From contig CAMBRC010000009.1 of assembly GCA_945869965.1 (NCBI GenBank), positions 1-64,000 on the forward strand: DNA of 64,000 nucleotides, read 5' to 3'. The notes beneath the pieces were generated by a model that saw only the letters and a program-made list of their open reading frames with translations, had not been told where the DNA came from and made no database searches. This document shows, piece after piece, positions 49,250 to 58,690 of the stretch. The first letter of the stretch is position 1, and every line of letters starts with the position of its first letter. Source of the DNA: Asaia bogorensis (GTDB taxonomy: Bacteria; Pseudomonadota; Alphaproteobacteria; Acetobacterales; Acetobacteraceae). The translations under genes and the position numbers were made by a program.

Positions 49250-49861
49250 ATGCTCGTCTTCAAGTTCGCCACCTGTGTGACGCCGATCCTCGCCCTGGCT
49301 GCCATGCTGGGCGCCGCGCACGCGCAACCGACCAAGCCACCGAGTGATGACGGGCGCGCCGCTCCGTTGTCGCTGCAATCTCAGCTGGGCTCGATTCCGC
49401 TGGTCTCGCCGCGCGCCGGAGCCAAGGCGGCGATGGAGCGGGTGGTGCGGATCACCCAGGTTGCTGGGCGCGAGGTGGTGGGCGACACGCGGGTAATCAG
49501 TTGTCCGGATACCGGCTGCCAGCAGGTCATTAGCCTGGTGGTGGACCGCGTGGCGCAGAGCTTCCTGATGGACATCCAGTTTGTCCGTCACGGCACCTAT
49601 GTGGCGCTGCAATCCCGCTCGGCGGCAATCGGCGGGGTGATGGATTTTCGCCAGGGCAAGCCGGGACCGGTATTCATCCGCGGCACAGAGACTGACGCCA
49701 CGGAGCATTTGTTGAGCTTTGTGACCGCGGTCGCGACATCGCTGCGGCGGCTGGAAACGGGCATGGACGGCAAGACGCTGGCCAGCGGCAATGTGTACAA
49801 CCGCAAGCAGTCGCCCGACATCGTGCTAAAGCTGGTGATCGAGCGCGCGAAGGAGAAATAA
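49250..49861 (+). CDS. secreted hypothetical protein
   Basis: A 203-residue protein with a signal peptide (LVFKFATCVTPILALAAMLG, cleavage near AHAQPTK). The mature part has two cysteines in ISCPDTGCQQVISLVVDRVA that could form a disulfide, and a beta-rich region with VRHGTYVALQSRSAAIGGVM. I do not recognise the family; it does not show the IalB signature. It begins 35 bases after glnD and is convergent with the large minus-strand fusion gene, with eight bases between their stops. Its role is unknown. Confidence 0.65.
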   Translation: MLVFKFATCVTPILALAAMLGAAHAQPTKPPSDDGRAAPLSLQSQLGSIPLVSPRAGAKAAMERVVRITQVAGREVVGDTRVISCPDTGCQQVISLVVDRVAQSFLMDIQFVRHGTYVALQSRSAAIGGVMDFRQGKPGPVFIRGTETDATEHLLSFVTAVATSLRRLETGMDGKTLASGNVYNRKQSPDIVLKLVIERAKEK

Positions 49862-49869
49862 CCGGCGCC

Positions 49870-52800
49870 TTATGGCAGCACTGGCAGTGCCAGCCGATCG
49901 GTGGCGCCAGACAGTATGTCAGTAAGTCGGACATGCCACAGCCCCGACGGATCGCTGGCGGCGAGTGGCAGCGGCCAGCTCGCGGTGCCCTTGCGCAGCG
50001 TGACATTGCCGGACAGGCTGGGACGCGGAGCGCCGTCCGGGCCGCTGACATCGACGCGCAGGACCGGGGCCGTGGCCAACGACGGACCGGCGAGGCCCAG
50101 GCGCAACACCGCCACCTCGCCGGCGCGGATGCCCGGCGGCGCAGCAAGGGTGGGAGACGGCAGGCGGGCGGGCGACAGCGCCAGCAGCAACGGCTCGGCC
50201 CCGGTCAGGCGCAGGCGCAATCGGCCGGGTTCGGACTCCGCGATACGGATGCCGCGACGCAAATCGGTGGCGCTGTGGCCAGGCGGCACGGTCAAGACGA
50301 TGTCGGAGCTGCCATCGATAGCCGTCTGTTGCAACCCGGCCAGGATGACGCCGCCGTTGCGCAGGAGGCGGGTTTCGATACCCGGATGCGGGGCGCCATT
50401 GGCGGCGGCGACGCTGATGGTGGGTTGCACCCGCGCCCGGGTCAGCAACGCGGCAAGGGCCGGCAGCGCGCGGACGTCGTCGTCCGGCAGATGGGCCGTG
50501 GCACGGGCCGGCGCGAGGTCGGTGAGTTGCGGGCGCGGCAAAAGGCGGCTGCGCCCGTCATAGCGCCCGACCTCGCCCATCGTCAGCACGATACCGCCGC
50601 GGGCGACGAAGCCACGGATCTCGGCGGCTTCGGCATCGGACAGCGCGATCACCTCGGGCAGCACCAGCAGGCGCAGGCCGCCGCCGCTCTTGGCCGCGTT
50701 CTTGTCCATTGGCCGCAGCGCGCCGCCGGCCACGAGATCAGCGGTGAGCCAGCGCGGCTGGGCGCCCAATGTGGACAGCAGGCGCGCGGCGCGCATGCGG
50801 GCGGCGCGGTGCGGCGGGACCGCGTTCCACTCGGTTTCGGCATTGCGCGCGGTCCAATCGCCGCCTTCACGCAAGCGCGCGAGCATCCATTGGGTGCGGA
50901 AGCTGGCTTGGGAATAGACGATGGCAACCTGGTCAAAATGCGGGGTGCTGGCGATCAGCTGGGCGCCGATGCCGCCGGCCAACTCGCGGATGGTCGGCGC
51001 CAGCGCCAGCCCGCGCGGACCCGGCGTTCCGTCCTGGGCCAGGAAGTCGCTGTTCTCATCCCATACCACCAAGCCACGGCTGCCCAGCAGGGCGGCGCGC
51101 CAGATCTGGCCGGCCTCCGCCGGGCCGCTGCCGAAGGAAGTACTGAGCAGCACCAGGGCAGGGTTCAGCGACCGGGCGATCTCGACGTTGTTGGCCTCGT
51201 TGTAAGGCTCGATGACATCCAGCGCCGTGGCGAGCAGGCCGTAGTCGTAGCCGCCCCAGCCAGGGATCTGCGCCCCGCCGATGCCGGCCAGCGCCGTCGT
51301 GTCGGCGGCATGCACCGCGTCGGTGCCGGCGCGCAGGGCGCGAGCGAAGGCGATGTCCATCCACGCCTTGAAGTCGGCCCAACCGGACCAGTTGCGGTCG
51401 GTGCGGGTCATCGCCTGGGTGGTGGTGGGCGGCATGACCGTGTCCCAGGCAGCGAAGCTGGCGCCCCATTGGCGATTGAGCGCCGCGAGGTCGCGATATT
51501 GGGTGCGCAGCCAGCCGCGAAAGCCTGCAAGCGACGCCGGGGAAAAATCGAAATCCCAGGCGGCGGCGAGATCGGCGATCGCCGCCTCGTCGGCCAGGTT
51601 GTAGAAATACGGACCAAACGGCGCCTGGTGGCGCACCGTGGCCCGCAGCCGTTCCTGGATGCGCGCGATCCAGACGGGATCGGACAGGCTGGGTTCGCGT
51701 AAGTTGACCGAGGCATCGGCCGGGTTTTCGCGCTGCCGGCGGCGGGTTTCGTCCCATAGCCAGGTGACCGAGGGGTGCTCCGGGCGCCAACGGTGATAAT
51801 TGGCGTAGAAGTCAGTAGCGATGTTCTCGACATACCAGCGGCCATTCCCGGCGATCAGCGGCGCGGTCTGCCGGTCGACGGCGGCAGGGTCGTATAGCGC
51901 TGCCCGGCTGCCGATCGCCTTGCCACCCGCCACGCCAAGAGTTTGCAGCGTGCGATAGGCAGCGGCGTCGCGGCCCTGCCACATCATGGCGTGCCAGTCG
52001 GTCCACCCCGCCCCGGTTGCCTGCGGTCCCGGCCGAGCGATGAAACGCGCCTCGGCGTGACGTGCGGGTTGGCCGGTCAGGTTCAGCACGGCGGCGAGGC
52101 GATTCTCCATCGCCAGCGCGCTGCGCATGTCGAGCGGGATCGCTACCTCGCGGACGGCGCGCAGGTCGAGTGTCGTGCGGCGTCGTTCGACCACGCGCCC
52201 AAGCGTGTCGGTCCATTCAAGCGCCAGGCTGCCGGTCGCCGTGACCGGGGCATCGAACCGCCAGACAGCGGTAGCGACCGGGCCACCCTGGAGCGCCACG
52301 GTGGGCGGCACGAGCGTATCGGCCCAGCCATACGATGGCATCGCAGTGGCAAGTCCGGCTGCCAACAGCGCCACCAGCCTCGGCTGGCGCCCCCATGTCA
52401 GCACCACCGGCAGGAGCACGAAGGTGACCAGCAGCGTGGCGCCGAGGCTCCAAAGCAGCAGTGCCCCCATGCTGGCGGTGCCCGGATGGCCGCTGGCGGC
52501 CAGCGAGCCAAACGCGGTGGCCGTGGTCAGCGCGGAAAACAATACCGCACGGGCGGTGGCGGTGCCCAGGAAGCGAGTAGCGCCGGCGCTGCGGTTCAGC
52601 ACGAAGTAGATGTTGAACGACACGCCCACGCCGAGCAGCAGCGGCAGTGCCACGATATTGGCGAAGTTGAGCGGTAGCGGCAGCAACACCGCCACCGGCA
52701 CCGTCAACAGCGCAGAGGCCAGCAACGCCCCCATCACCAGCGCCACATCGCGCGGCCGGCGCATGATTGCTAGCAGCAGAACGGCGATTGCTACCACGGC

Positions 52801-54960
52801 GCCGATGGCAGCCGTACGAAATGCGCCAACGATAGTGCCTGCCGTCTCGGTGATCGTGACTGCTGATCCGCCGGCTCCGGGGGCGACTGCCCGCACCTGC
52901 TCGACAAAACGATGCAGCCCCGCCGCGTCCCGGCCCTCCGGCTTGGCGCTGACCTGCACCCGCACCCGCCCATCCGGCAGGCGCCAGTCCCGCGCCAGCT
53001 CGGCCGGCAGCTCGGCCAGGGTCACCGGTCCGGCCTGGAGCGCCTGGCGCAAGCGGTCGAGCTGGGCCGGCAGAAAGCGGGTCAGGGCGGCGTCCATCGC
53101 GACCAGCCGGGCGTCTGGCGCGGTGGCCAGTATGGCGAGTGCGGCCGCGATGCCGTGCATGGGGTCGCCGGGTTTCAGGCGAGGCAGCACGCGCTCGATC
53201 TCGGCGCGCGCGGTCTGGATCGCCAGGCGCAGATCGGCCGGCGTGACCGGGGCTGCGGCGGTGCGCGGCGCCAGTGTGGCGCCCAGGATGCTGGCGGCAT
53301 CGGCCACCAGCGGCAGTTTGGCTGCCTGTCCGGCCGGCACCAGGCTGGTCAGACTGACCACCTCGGCTACCAGCGGCAGGGCGCGCAGCCTCACCATCAG
53401 CGCATCGGCCTCCTCCGGCGAGCCCGCCAAGACATCGGCGGTGTACGGCGAGGTCAACGGATCATCCATCAGCACACGCAGGGTGGCCATCGCCTCGGTG
53501 CCGGCATCCTTGGTGTGCAGCGGGTCGCTGTCGAATTCGAGCCGCGGCAACAGCACGACGCCCAGCAGGCACAACACCGCGAACGCCGCCGCCACCGGCA
53601 ACCGCGCGCGCAACAGCATGACCTCGGCCCGTCCGGCCCAGGCAAAGCCGATCTCGGCGGCCTCGCCGCGCGGCTGCAACAGAATCAGACAGGCCGGCAG
53701 GAAGGTCAGCGTGCAGACGAGCGCCACCAGCATGCCAGTACCCGCGATCAGCCCGAGCTCGGCCACGCCGCGAAAGCTGGTTGGCACGAAGGCGAGGAAC
53801 CCGGCGGCGATGGCCAAGGCGGCCAGTACGATCTGCGGCCCGACCGACAGCATGGTCTCGGTCAGCGCCAGGCTGGCATCCCCGGCATCCAGCCGCTTCT
53901 CGCGGTAGCGCACGCAGAACTGGATGGCGAAGTCGATGGCGATGCCGACAAACAGCACGGCGAACGCGATCGAGATCAGGTTCAGCGACCCCACCGCGAG
54001 TGCAGCAAACCCGGTGGTGAGCAACAGGCCAAGCACCAACGTGGCGACAATGGCCACGATCAGCCGCCAGGAGCGCACCGCCAGCACCAGCCAGAGCAAC
54101 ACCAGCGCCGCGCTGATGATCATTCCGGTCGCCGCCCCCTCCGCCACGGTGGCGAATTCCTCGTCGGCCAGGGCGACCGTGCCGGTGACGTGGACGGTTG
54201 CGCGTCCGGCCTTGACCGCCGGGATCCCCGCAGCGGCGGCACGCAAGACGGCGGTGGCGGCCCCGCCGGGCTCCAGGGCGCCAAGGTCGAGCCGCGCCTT
54301 CGCCAGCACCAGGCGGCGCGGCCCGGCAAGCTCGACCAGTTTGCCGCCCAACAGGCGCTGCCAGGAGAGCGGTGATGGCGTGCCGGCGGCGGCATCGGCC
54401 AGCGCGCGCTCGAAGCCCTGCAGGGCCGGCCGAAAGCTGTCGAGCGAGGCTTCGCCGCGGTCCACGCCCATGGCGACCAAGGCCAGAGTGGCGAACAAGC
54501 CGCGCGCGCTGGGATCGGAGGCGAGCTGGCCAAGGAAAGGCTGGGCGTCGATCGTGCGGTCGAGCAATTCGGCGAGGTCCGGCTCGTCGAGAAACAACAG
54601 GGCGTTGCGGGCGAACCACGGATCAGCGTCCGGCCGGCGGGCAAAGCGGAAATGCACCGTGTCAGCCGACAATGCGGCGGCCAGGCTGGCGGCGGTTTCC
54701 TCGGCCTCCTCGGGCGTGGCGCCCTCGACCACGGCGACCAGGAGGTCGCTGAACTGCGGAAACGCCGCCGCCAAGGCAATCTCGCGCTGGCGCCAGGGCA
54801 GGGCGGCATCGAACAAGGCATCGGTGTCGGTGGTCACGCCGAGGCGCAATGCCGCCAGCGCGGCGCCGAGTACCCCGAGGACCAGTCCAACCAAGACCAC
54901 CTGCCGGGCGCGATGGCGGCAGAATTCGGCGGTAGCGGCAAGCAGAGACGGCAAAGTCAT
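49870..54960 (-). CDS. hpnN: HpnN-like RND/MMPL transporter fused to a glycoside-hydrolase-like C-terminal domain
   Basis: An uninterrupted frame of 1,696 residues. Residues 1-865 are an HpnN-like MMPL/RND transporter: the start TTDTDALFDAALPWRQREIA, LLFLDEPDLAELLDR, VGIAIDFAIQFCVRYREKRL in the membrane part and a second membrane half ending LLPVVLTWGRQPR. HpnN moves hopanoids to the outer membrane and is about 870 residues in other bacteria. At residues 865-880 a signal-peptide-like helix (VALLAAGLATAMPSYGWA) follows, and residues 880-1696 resemble a GH42-type TIM-barrel with a glutamine-amidotransferase-like tail (LAALNRQWGASFAAWDTV, VIEPYNEAN, GLVVWDENSDF). The join has no stop or frameshift. 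The start at 54960 is chosen because the frame further upstream is repeat and mprF sequence. It is last in the operon lysK-mprF-hpnN. Confidence 0.68.
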   Translation of the reverse strand: MTLPSLLAATAEFCRHRARQVVLVGLVLGVLGAALAALRLGVTTDTDALFDAALPWRQREIALAAAFPQFSDLLVAVVEGATPEEAEETAASLAAALSADTVHFRFARRPDADPWFARNALLFLDEPDLAELLDRTIDAQPFLGQLASDPSARGLFATLALVAMGVDRGEASLDSFRPALQGFERALADAAAGTPSPLSWQRLLGGKLVELAGPRRLVLAKARLDLGALEPGGAATAVLRAAAAGIPAVKAGRATVHVTGTVALADEEFATVAEGAATGMIISAALVLLWLVLAVRSWRLIVAIVATLVLGLLLTTGFAALAVGSLNLISIAFAVLFVGIAIDFAIQFCVRYREKRLDAGDASLALTETMLSVGPQIVLAALAIAAGFLAFVPTSFRGVAELGLIAGTGMLVALVCTLTFLPACLILLQPRGEAAEIGFAWAGRAEVMLLRARLPVAAAFAVLCLLGVVLLPRLEFDSDPLHTKDAGTEAMATLRVLMDDPLTSPYTADVLAGSPEEADALMVRLRALPLVAEVVSLTSLVPAGQAAKLPLVADAASILGATLAPRTAAAPVTPADLRLAIQTARAEIERVLPRLKPGDPMHGIAAALAILATAPDARLVAMDAALTRFLPAQLDRLRQALQAGPVTLAELPAELARDWRLPDGRVRVQVSAKPEGRDAAGLHRFVEQVRAVAPGAGGSAVTITETAGTIVGAFRTAAIGAVVAIAVLLLAIMRRPRDVALVMGALLASALLTVPVAVLLPLPLNFANIVALPLLLGVGVSFNIYFVLNRSAGATRFLGTATARAVLFSALTTATAFGSLAASGHPGTASMGALLLWSLGATLLVTFVLLPVVLTWGRQPRLVALLAAGLATAMPSYGWADTLVPPTVALQGGPVATAVWRFDAPVTATGSLALEWTDTLGRVVERRRTTLDLRAVREVAIPLDMRSALAMENRLAAVLNLTGQPARHAEARFIARPGPQATGAGWTDWHAMMWQGRDAAAYRTLQTLGVAGGKAIGSRAALYDPAAVDRQTAPLIAGNGRWYVENIATDFYANYHRWRPEHPSVTWLWDETRRRQRENPADASVNLREPSLSDPVWIARIQERLRATVRHQAPFGPYFYNLADEAAIADLAAAWDFDFSPASLAGFRGWLRTQYRDLAALNRQWGASFAAWDTVMPPTTTQAMTRTDRNWSGWADFKAWMDIAFARALRAGTDAVHAADTTALAGIGGAQIPGWGGYDYGLLATALDVIEPYNEANNVEIARSLNPALVLLSTSFGSGPAEAGQIWRAALLGSRGLVVWDENSDFLAQDGTPGPRGLALAPTIRELAGGIGAQLIASTPHFDQVAIVYSQASFRTQWMLARLREGGDWTARNAETEWNAVPPHRAARMRAARLLSTLGAQPRWLTADLVAGGALRPMDKNAAKSGGGLRLLVLPEVIALSDAEAAEIRGFVARGGIVLTMGEVGRYDGRSRLLPRPQLTDLAPARATAHLPDDDVRALPALAALLTRARVQPTISVAAANGAPHPGIETRLLRNGGVILAGLQQTAIDGSSDIVLTVPPGHSATDLRRGIRIAESEPGRLRLRLTGAEPLLLALSPARLPSPTLAAPPGIRAGEVAVLRLGLAGPSLATAPVLRVDVSGPDGAPRPSLSGNVTLRKGTASWPLPLAASDPSGLWHVRLTDILSGATDRLALPVLP

Positions 54961-55003: not shown

Positions 55004-57088
55004 TCAATGATCGAGGTCCAGGGTCTCGGACCCTGGTGGAGTCGAGGGGCGAAGCCCCCGCCTTTCTTCCCGCCCCCCAACCGCAAGCTCCGGCAGCAAT
55101 GGCAACAAGACGGGCAAGTCGCGCTCGGCAACGCAGGCCAGGAATCTGGTCGCGTGCGGCACGGGTGAATCTTCGGCATCGGCGCGCGGCAGCCCGGCGG
55201 CGTCGAGCGCCAGGGCAGCCAGACCGATATCGCCATAGACCGGCAGCAACGCGCGTCCGGCGCGCCAGACGGCGGGATGCAGCCCCTCCTGCACCGCGAG
55301 GTCGCGCAGCCGCCAGATCGCGGAAACACGGTCCGATGCGGCGCCGGCCGGATCGCCGAAGCCGAGTAGCACGCCGTCGACGCGGCGGAACGGGATCGCG
55401 GCGCGTCCGGCCTCGCCCCACAACAGCCCGTCGGCCTGGGGTGGCGGTTCCGCGCCTAGGGCGCGATAGCGAGCTTGTGCGTCGGCGTCCCAGAGGTTGG
55501 CGGTCACTCGGCCGGGGCGGACCAGGCCCCAGATCGCCACCGGCCCGATCAGCACCGCGAGCAGCACGCTGACTCGCACCACGTTCGGCAGGTCGGGCGA
55601 CAGCACCAGCTGCCACCAGGATTCGCGCGCCAGCAGGGTCAGGCGCGGTTCGAAGGTGGCCAGCATCAGCACGCTGCCGGCCAGCAGCAGCGGCGCGGCG
55701 GCACGCGTCGGGTCCAGCCCGCCGCTGAGCAGCCGCGCCTGACGATAGAACAGGCGGCGGAACGGCGAGAGCAGGCCGGCGGCGGCCAGCAGCAGCCCGG
55801 GGATCCAGAAATGCTCGCCGCGCACCGCGGTGACTACGGCCACGATCAGCAGCAGCGCGATCGTCAGCCCCCAGGCCAGCGTCACGCGCCGGGTCAGCGC
55901 AATCGACAGCACCACAAGGGCCGCGCCGATCAGGCTGGGAACAAAGGCACCGGCCGGGTTGAACAACGGCTCCAGCCAGGACGGCAGGCTCCAGGCCGGC
56001 GCGATCCAGGAATAATCGCCCAGCGCATCCACCGCCCCCATCCCCAGCAGCATCGCGCCGCACAGCGCGACGGCCCCCACCACGGTGGCGACCGCAAAAT
56101 CCGGCTGGCTCCAGCGCGCGATGGTCTGCACCCCGGCGAGCGTGGCGGTGCCGGCCATCACGCCACGTCCGCGCAACAGCATTTCGTTGCCGGCAAACAG
56201 CGCTCCGGCGAGGAACAGCGGTACGATGTAGTAATACAGCCGGAACACCACGATCCCGCCCACGATCACAGGCGGTTCCAGATAGGGCGACAGCCCAAGC
56301 AGGATCACGGTGTCGAACACCCCGATGCCGCCCGGAATATTGGCGGCCAGCCCTGCCAAGTAGGCCGCGACATAGATGCCCATCAGGCCGATGAAGGACA
56401 GGCCTGGGATCGGCGGCAACAGCGCGTGCAGGATGGCGGCTGTGACCGCCATGTCCGCTGTGGCCAACAGGGTTTGCAGCAGCGCCATGCGCCAGGACGG
56501 CAAGTCGACGTCGTGGCCGAACACCCGCACCCGGCCGATCGCGCCGGACAACACGACATAGGCCGCGGCGGTGAACAGCAGCGCCGCGGCGATCAACTGG
56601 CGCATCCAGTCGGGCAGGCGGCTGGTCGAGATCGGCAGCGCCTGCGGCTCGGCCAGCAGCACCACGCCACCGAGCACCAGCCCGCCGAGGATGAAGGTCA
56701 GCGAGCAGAACGCCACCACCTTGCCGATCTGCAGCGGAGTCAGGCCCCAATGGGCATACAGCCGGTAGCGCACCGCGGCACCGGACACGGCCGCAAATCC
56801 AAGATTATGCGCCAGGGTATAGGCGCAGAACGACGCAAACGCCGCGCGGCCATAGCTGACCGCCCGCCCGGCATAGATCGTCGCCATCCGGTCGTAGACG
56901 GTCAGCAGCGCATAGGCCGCCAGCGTCCAGCCGACGCCAATCCAGAGCTGCACCGTCGGGATTGCCGCCAGCGCCGCCTTGATGTCAGCCAGCTTGAGGG
57001 ATTGAAACTCGTGTTGCACCACCCAGATCGCGCCACCGAGCAGGGCAACACCGAGCACCGCGGGTAGATGACGCAGCGCCGCCTTCAT
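55004..57088 (-). CDS. mprF: MprF-like lysylphosphatidylglycerol synthase/flippase with shortened C-terminal domain
   Basis: A 694-residue membrane protein. The N-terminal two thirds are the flippase part: YAGRAVSYGRAAFASFCAYT, NLGFAAVSGAAVRYRLY, GLAANIPGGIGVFDTVILLG and a further block of six to eight helices. The C-terminal soluble part begins like the synthase domain (LWGEAGRAAIPFRRVDGVLL, GFGDPAGAASDRVSAIWRLR) but is only about 150 residues where MprF normally has some 300, so much of the catalytic half is missing. The last 17 residues (RGLRPSTPPGSETLDLD) are encoded by a GC-rich intergenic repeat. It may be a truncated or flippase-only form. It follows lysK by 18 bases, in keeping with the need for Lys-tRNA. 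Confidence 0.75.
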   Translation of the reverse strand: MKAALRHLPAVLGVALLGGAIWVVQHEFQSLKLADIKAALAAIPTVQLWIGVGWTLAAYALLTVYDRMATIYAGRAVSYGRAAFASFCAYTLAHNLGFAAVSGAAVRYRLYAHWGLTPLQIGKVVAFCSLTFILGGLVLGGVVLLAEPQALPISTSRLPDWMRQLIAAALLFTAAAYVVLSGAIGRVRVFGHDVDLPSWRMALLQTLLATADMAVTAAILHALLPPIPGLSFIGLMGIYVAAYLAGLAANIPGGIGVFDTVILLGLSPYLEPPVIVGGIVVFRLYYYIVPLFLAGALFAGNEMLLRGRGVMAGTATLAGVQTIARWSQPDFAVATVVGAVALCGAMLLGMGAVDALGDYSWIAPAWSLPSWLEPLFNPAGAFVPSLIGAALVVLSIALTRRVTLAWGLTIALLLIVAVVTAVRGEHFWIPGLLLAAAGLLSPFRRLFYRQARLLSGGLDPTRAAAPLLLAGSVLMLATFEPRLTLLARESWWQLVLSPDLPNVVRVSVLLAVLIGPVAIWGLVRPGRVTANLWDADAQARYRALGAEPPPQADGLLWGEAGRAAIPFRRVDGVLLGFGDPAGAASDRVSAIWRLRDLAVQEGLHPAVWRAGRALLPVYGDIGLAALALDAAGLPRADAEDSPVPHATRFLACVAERDLPVLLPLLPELAVGGREERRGLRPSTPPGSETLDLDH
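55013..55062 (+). repeat. GGTCCAGGG-type GC-rich repeat, copy 2, inside the 3' end of the mprF-like gene
   Basis: Second copy of the unit at 38796-38842: CCAGGGTCTCGGACCCTGG and GGGGCGAAGCCCC hairpins. It reads through in the mprF frame and supplies its last codons, so the repeat either inserted into the gene end or the stop has moved downstream. Confidence 0.75.
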
Positions 57089-57106: not shown

Positions 57107-58690
57107 TCACGCCGGTTCGCGAGCTAGCGCCCCGTCGATCAGCGCCATGGTCTCTGCGATGCCGTACAGGGCGATGAACTGGCCGAAGCGCGGGCCTTCC
57201 TGCTGGCCCAGCAGCACCTGGTACAGACAACCAAACCAGGCGCGCAGTTCCGGGAAGGAATGACGCTTGCCGATCTCGTAAAGTACATCCTGGATCATCT
57301 CGGCTGGCGAGTCGGGGGCGAGCTTGGCGAGTTCGCCGTGCAGATCAACCAGCGCGGCGCGCTCGATCTCCGAGGCGGCACGATACTGCTTCGCCGGACG
57401 GACGAAGTCGCGGTAGTAAGCCAGTGCATATTCCACCAGCCGTGCCAGCAGCGGCATGTCCTCGGGCGTGGCGCCGGGGTTATAGCGGCGGATGAAGCCC
57501 CATAGGATATCGGGGTTCTCGGCATTCACCACGCTGGCCAGGTTGAGCAGCATGGCGAAGGACAGCGGCGAATGCGCCTCCTGCGGGATGCGGCCGTCGT
57601 GGATATGCCAGACGGGGTTGGCGGGCTTTTCGTGCGCCGCCTGGCCCTGGCCCTTCAGCGCATTGGCGATGTACTCGTCGACCGCCTTGGGGATGACGTC
57701 GAAATACAGCCGCTTGGCGCGCTGCGGCTGGTTGTACATGTATTGGCTGAGCGATTCCGGCGGGGCGTAGCGCAGCCATTCCTCCACCGAGAGCCCGTTG
57801 CCCTTGGACTTGGAGATCTTCTGCGCCTGTTCGTCGAGGAACAGCTCATAGGTGAAGCCGACCGGCGGCGTGCTGCCGAGGATGCGGCAGATGGCACCGG
57901 ACAACCTGACGCTGTCGATGAGATCCTTGCCGGACATTTCGTAGTCCACGCCCAGCGCATGCCAGCGCATCGCCCAATCGGCCTTCCACTGGCACTTGCC
58001 GCCGCCGCCAAGGATGCAGGTCTCGTACCGCGCCCCGGTGGCAGGATCGGTCCATGCGACCATGCCGGTTTCAGTGTCCAGCACCTCCAGCTTCACCTGC
58101 ATCACCACATCGGTCTCGGGATGCACCGGCAGGATCGGCGAATAGGTGGCGCGCCGGTCCGGGCCGAGCGTCGGCAGGATCACGCCGACAATCTGGTCGT
58201 GCTTGCGCAGGATCTGCCGCAGCGCGTCGTCAAAGCGGCCAGAGGCATAGTACTCGCTGGACGAGGCGAACTCGTATTCGAAGCCGAAGCTGTCCAGAAA
58301 GCTCTGCAGCCGGGCGTTGTTGTGCGCACCAAAGCTCGAATGGGTGCCGAACGGGTCGGGGATACGGGTCAACGGCTTGCCGAGATAGCCGGCCAGCATG
58401 TCCTTGTTCGGCACATTGTCCGGCACCTTGCGCAGCCCGTCCATGTCGTCGCTGAACGCCAGCAGCTTGCTCGGCAGCCCGGTCAGTTCGGTAAACGCGC
58501 GCCGGACCCAGGAGGTGCGCGCGACCTCGCCGAACGTGCCGATATGCGGCAGCCCGGATGGCCCGTACCCGGTTTCGAACAACGCCACCGGCTTGCCCGA
58601 TTTCTCCATCCGCTCGACCAGCTTCTGCGCCTCCTCGAACGGCCAGGAACGGGGCATGACGGGCGTCGGAGGGAGGGGGCTGGCGGACAT
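57107..58690 (-). CDS. lysK: lysine--tRNA ligase, class I
   Basis: A 527-residue class I lysyl-tRNA synthetase, the form that replaces the usual class II enzyme in many alphaproteobacteria. The nucleotide-binding HIGH-type motif is GLPHIGTFGEVART near residue 48 and the second is AQKISKSKGNGLSVEEW (KMSKS-type). A cysteine-containing CILGGGGKCQWK lies in the insertion. Length is normal. It is first in a minus-strand operon with mprF and hpnN and is divergent from the helicase gene (90 bases between starts). Confidence 0.94.
   Translation of the reverse strand: MSASPLPPTPVMPRSWPFEEAQKLVERMEKSGKPVALFETGYGPSGLPHIGTFGEVARTSWVRRAFTELTGLPSKLLAFSDDMDGLRKVPDNVPNKDMLAGYLGKPLTRIPDPFGTHSSFGAHNNARLQSFLDSFGFEYEFASSSEYYASGRFDDALRQILRKHDQIVGVILPTLGPDRRATYSPILPVHPETDVVMQVKLEVLDTETGMVAWTDPATGARYETCILGGGGKCQWKADWAMRWHALGVDYEMSGKDLIDSVRLSGAICRILGSTPPVGFTYELFLDEQAQKISKSKGNGLSVEEWLRYAPPESLSQYMYNQPQRAKRLYFDVIPKAVDEYIANALKGQGQAAHEKPANPVWHIHDGRIPQEAHSPLSFAMLLNLASVVNAENPDILWGFIRRYNPGATPEDMPLLARLVEYALAYYRDFVRPAKQYRAASEIERAALVDLHGELAKLAPDSPAEMIQDVLYEIGKRHSFPELRAWFGCLYQVLLGQQEGPRFGQFIALYGIAETMALIDGALAREPA

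Follow-up and report, generated by a model that had tools for sequence, protein, structure and literature searches.

A hopanoid transporter gene fused to a GH42-like enzyme gene in one genus of Acetobacteraceae, with a signal peptide retained at the joint

In the window (the whole 64,000-nucleotide stretch of DNA that was analysed), we identified a minus-strand open reading frame of 1,696 codons (54960-49870, with an ATG at 54960 and the stop codon at 49870-49872) that joins an HpnN-type hopanoid transporter to a glycoside hydrolase-like enzyme and is open from end to end, as the first-pass annotation had read it. This fusion is genuine, occurs throughout the genus and has a single origin. The complete account that we propose, in which a small indel in an ATGA overlap created a genus-wide fusion gene with an internal export signal, whose product is probably cleaved to give an enzyme for envelope sugars, appears reasonably probable. 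The features of the locus are:

52396..54960, minus strand: HpnN-type RND/MMPL hopanoid transporter, residues 1-855 (TIGR03480; phmmer to 5khn/6wu0)
52321..52395, minus strand: joint, residues 856-880 (WGRQPRLVALLAAGLATAMPSYGWA), the enzyme's former signal peptide (comparison with 14 unfused pairs and seven fused congeners)
49873..52320, minus strand: GH42/GH167-like periplasmic enzyme domain, residues 881-1696 (AlphaFold2, Foldseek and conservation in 55 sequences), with an N-terminal beta domain, a (beta/alpha)8 barrel, a GH42M-like domain and C-terminal beta domains in the predicted structure
55004..57088, minus strand: MprF-like protein, co-directional with hpnN and separated from its upstream end by 43 bp (NF033480, 311 bits, below the cut-off of 600; synteny)
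57107..58690, minus strand: class I lysyl-tRNA synthetase (LysRS), first gene of the same-direction run (PF01921, 406 bits; NF001968, 818 bits; synteny)
49250..49861, plus strand: convergent conserved neighbour (synteny), with no match in Pfam and NCBIfam searches

The genome is a draft of 209 contigs, which would leave room for an artefact of sequencing or assembly that joins two genes, and the annotation had itself named the signs of one, namely a stop or frameshift near 52360, or separate genes in close relatives with this copy an isolated error. A search of related genomes instead recovered the same fusion, in divergent sequences without an internal stop, from seven other species of this genus, which has been seen solely in metagenomes; an error is thus rejected, and we regard its probability as negligible. 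Six congeners showed 73-74% identity along the full query or the greater part of it, and congener G004 showed 80% and 67% identity over two parts of the fused protein; the fused copy of G002 ends early at a contig edge. No separate copies of hpnN or the enzyme gene were seen in the fused congeners, and only one HpnN is present in the genome of the window. A further relative in the genus (G006, genome 68% complete) gave no match in the fusion search. The phylogenetic tree of the enzyme domain united the eight fused copies, which appear to derive from metagenome-assembled genomes, with a support of 100, and this single clade branches from within the copies linked to hpnN. Both halves are under constraint, with pN/pS values of 0.12-0.45 and 0.11-0.62. 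No paper that treats HpnN, hopanoids and glycoside hydrolases together was found in the literature searched, in line with the earlier remark that no such fusion was known; the HpnN-enzyme fusion is lineage-specific and, for the topics searched, an earlier report was not found.

The transporter part matches TIGR03480 over residues 8-855 with 890.1 bits, above the curated cut-off of 751.85 bits, and scores 801.4 bits against the stricter HpnN model NF052374, under its cut-off of 1100. It is homologous from end to end to the solved HpnN 5khn (phmmer against 5khn/6wu0, E 7e-144, residues 7-854) and retains the TM4 aspartate (Asp343), which is invariant in 24 aligned sequences. The assignment to the HpnN type therefore stands, whereas the proposed length of about 870 residues was slightly too long, since the domain stops at about residue 855 by TIGR03480. 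The difference from known HpnN proteins lies beyond this point: the family model stops at 862 positions, just past the last helix, while the query adds a 25-residue signal peptide and an 816-residue enzyme. The TM10 motif GVGVSFNIYF (residues 777-786) contains no Asp, like that of 5khn (GVGVAFKVYF).

Unfused relatives point to the way in which the two genes were joined. Seven other genera of Acetobacteraceae (g5, g21, g52, g95, g107, g129 and g138) have the enzyme gene directly after hpnN as a separate gene, which agrees with the earlier proposal that an adjacent transporter gene and exported hydrolase gene may have fused. The same locus is marked in unfused genera by the gene corresponding to 49250-49861, followed by GlnD and MutS (L068, L104, L106, L109, L111, L113 and L132), and the MprF-like gene is the conserved upstream neighbour of the fusion across the fused genus. 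This MprF-like protein, encoded between LysRS and hpnN, has 694 aa versus approximately 669 aa in congeners, and its match to the catalytic C-terminal domain is confined to roughly the leading third (positions 26-98 of the 298 in the profile). In our count, ten of the 14 unfused pairs showed an ATGA overlap that puts the enzyme gene in the -1 frame (L060, L061, L104, L106, L107, L109, L110, L111, L115 and L131). At the position of this stop/start overlap, the fused frame has the TGG codon of Trp856 (52395-52393); several congeners read TGG-AAG-CGC (W-K-R) where L060 and L104 carry ATGAAGCGC, and the split relatives read ATG-AAG-CGC (M-K-R). The length of the HpnN tail varies among relatives.

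Loss of a stop codon had been suggested as the origin of the fusion. Because the enzyme lies in the -1 frame in most unfused relatives, simple stop loss is disfavoured, and a small frameshift within the ATGA overlap appears to be the better explanation; for example, one base inserted in ATGA would convert the stop TGA to TGG and at the same time put the enzyme in frame. The ancestor would have had hpnN followed by an exported GH42-like enzyme gene, probably with the ATGA overlap, and a small indel in the overlap would have united the two frames. The two states and the clade of fused copies are seen directly, and the exact mutation is our inference from them.

A signal-peptide-like stretch at the join had also been noted, and we could place it at residues 856-880, both from its composition and from relatives in which the same stretch is a free N-terminus. 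The joints of all eight fused species contain at least two positively charged residues and a hydrophobic core, and their -3 and -1 positions are occupied by small residues; the -1 residue is Ala in each case, and -2 is variable (W, A, G, Q or H). The joint sequence evolves fast, yet the features of a signal peptide are kept. In the predicted structure it forms a short helix (860-872, pLDDT below 50) apart from the last HpnN helix (826-854). A separate translation start at the joint was judged unlikely, since no conserved in-frame ATG is present there among the fused congeners.

Since signal peptidase-like residues at -3 and -1 are kept in all eight species, an argument whose weight depends on the age of the fusion, cleavage at the joint seems more likely than tethering, and one gene may give two separate proteins. 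The ribosome would make a single chain, whose HpnN domain would insert into the inner membrane and, as is general for RND proteins, finish on the cytoplasmic side; the old signal peptide would then act as an internal export signal that moves the enzyme domain to the periplasm. Judging from the retained -3 and -1 residues, the probable cleavage site of signal peptidase I lies after Ala880, and the cut would yield HpnN and the released periplasmic enzyme in equimolar amounts.

The second part of the frame had been described as a GH42-type barrel with a tail, and further analysis supports a barrel of this kind but not standard GH42 membership. The PF02449 (GH42) profile matches the full protein with 29.1 bits (gathering score 21) at residues 1138-1211, a partial match covering 78 of 376 profile positions, and 54 of 55 relatives match it as well. 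Structure prediction with AlphaFold2 from the 55-sequence alignment gave a confident model (mean pLDDT 93.6) with a (beta/alpha)8 barrel of the GH42/GH167 type. The best Foldseek matches were 9whd (GH167, E 2.8e-21) and 6ptm (a GH42 exo-carrageenase of Bacteroides, E 2.4e-20), followed by GH42 beta-galactosidases. These two best fold matches share 13-14% identity with the query (TM-scores 0.43-0.52) and say nothing on its substrate; for the solved GH167 structure 9whd, the values are 14% and 0.43-0.49. In the fused copy of G004 (locus L066, 5172-9953), the enzyme part lacks its N-terminal beta domain, and the signal peptide directly abuts the barrel region.

Twenty-five columns are invariant among the 55 sequences, including Glu1045, Asp1124-Glu1125 and Glu1251 (Glu165, Asp244-Glu245 and Glu371 of the domain), which lie at the ends of barrel strands in the model. 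Glu1125 occupies the putative acid/base place after strand 4 and is invariant in 55/55 sequences, preceded by an invariant Asp rather than Asn. The clan GH-A nucleophile sits at the end of strand 7. By conservation and the model, a Glu is absent from this place in the enzyme, where the strand ends in T1274-S1275-F1276 with Thr in 53 of 54 sequences, a comparison based on strand order without residue-level superposition. In the GH42 enzyme BiBga42A, Glu318 is the nucleophile, and Asn159 and Glu160 are found at the acid/base place (PMC10688820). GH42 beta-galactosidases such as BiBga42A (PDB 8ibr) share with the query the (beta/alpha)8 barrel and the Glu after strand 4, and some members also the GH42M-like middle domain, but they differ in having Asn-Glu instead of Asp-Glu and a nucleophilic Glu at strand 7; identities are 12-14%, and in the listed matches the query-normalised TM-score does not exceed 0.54.

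Because strand 7 ends without Glu, the enzyme is, by sequence and model, clan GH-A-like at the acid/base but lacks a defining GH42 feature and is no standard GH42 member. With this Glu missing, the domain might be a pseudo-enzyme, able to bind a glycan but not to cleave it; we consider this improbable in view of the 25 invariant columns, several of whose acidic residues lie at barrel strand ends like those of active enzymes. An active enzyme is the reading we prefer: conservation suggests that Glu1125 is the acid/base in a catalytic arrangement unlike that of standard GH42, in which either Glu1251 or Glu1045 might serve as the nucleophile or the substrate itself might assist. The target would most likely be a sugar on a glycan or glycolipid of the envelope, which the enzyme would cleave or transfer.

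Of 102 Acetobacteraceae genera sampled, 28 contain the enzyme family; apart from the genome of the window, it occurs in one genome of a class-wide sample of 289, and one contig of Salinisphaera carries it as well. The genome of the window encodes a squalene-hopene cyclase (TIGR01507, 766.9 bits) and HpnI, the enzyme making GlcNAc-bacteriohopanetetrol (PMC12583986), so that the substrate might be a glycosylated hopanoid. The annotation had suggested that a glycosidase tethered to the exporter could trim a glycolipid: in an uncleaved chain, a membrane-bound enzyme beside the transporter would act on a glycosylated hopanoid or other lipid (e.g., GlcNAc- or GlcN-bacteriohopanetetrol) during its passage through the periplasm. 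The tandem arrangement of the unfused gene with hpnN in seven genera would fit such a role, and the invariant Asp-Glu at strand 4 could in principle allow substrate-assisted catalysis on an N-acetyl sugar. On the other hand, the joints of all eight species are of the cleavage type, many genomes carry the enzyme without linkage to hpnN, and HpnI is common in the family whether the enzyme is present (54 of 61) or not (184 of 238), a weak difference from a hand count that ignores kinship. We therefore consider the tethered form unlikely. Its more specific version, an uncleaved bifunctional transporter-enzyme that removes or transfers the sugar of a glycosylated hopanoid during HpnN transport by a mechanism unlike that of other GH42-type enzymes, is more doubtful still.

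Relatives of the enzyme are also found, away from hpnN, in polysaccharide-type contexts. In six loci (L037, L043, L046, L055, L105 and L119), genes for exported right-handed beta-helix (NosD-like) proteins precede the enzyme gene, and in two of them (L037 and L055) a GT2 synthase-like gene and a DUF4864 gene are also nearby. Because of these neighbours, the substrate need not be a hopanoid and may be a surface polysaccharide. The same contexts are consistent with a near-neutral fusion, that is, an accident in the ATGA overlap that is tolerated because signal peptidase separates the parts, with the enzyme acting on exopolysaccharide and unrelated to hopanoids. In the unfused G211 (L132, 5717-8068), the enzyme gene is broken into three fragments that occupy different frames, possibly a pseudogene or an assembly error; the enzyme may accordingly be dispensable. 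However, seven genera retain the link to hpnN, all eight species examined retain the fusion, and the beta-helix relatives of the fused genus are located elsewhere in the genome; we give near-neutrality only tentative credence. In G114, which is hpnN-linked and lacks the beta-helix-enzyme arrangement, a beta-helix relative adjoins glycosyltransferase and O-antigen-ligase-like genes.

The favoured reading thus remains a fusion product that is probably cut into a transporter and a periplasmic enzyme, and the more striking one of a tethered machine trimming glycolipids, although possible, is not favoured. The fusion illustrates how translationally coupled bacterial genes can join with little change to their parts if a signal peptide at the joint can re-separate them. 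It also draws attention to a GH42-like enzyme family, found mainly in Acetobacteraceae in this sampling, that combines an unusual active site with repeated linkage to a hopanoid transporter, and this linkage makes a tie between hopanoid transport and envelope sugars testable.
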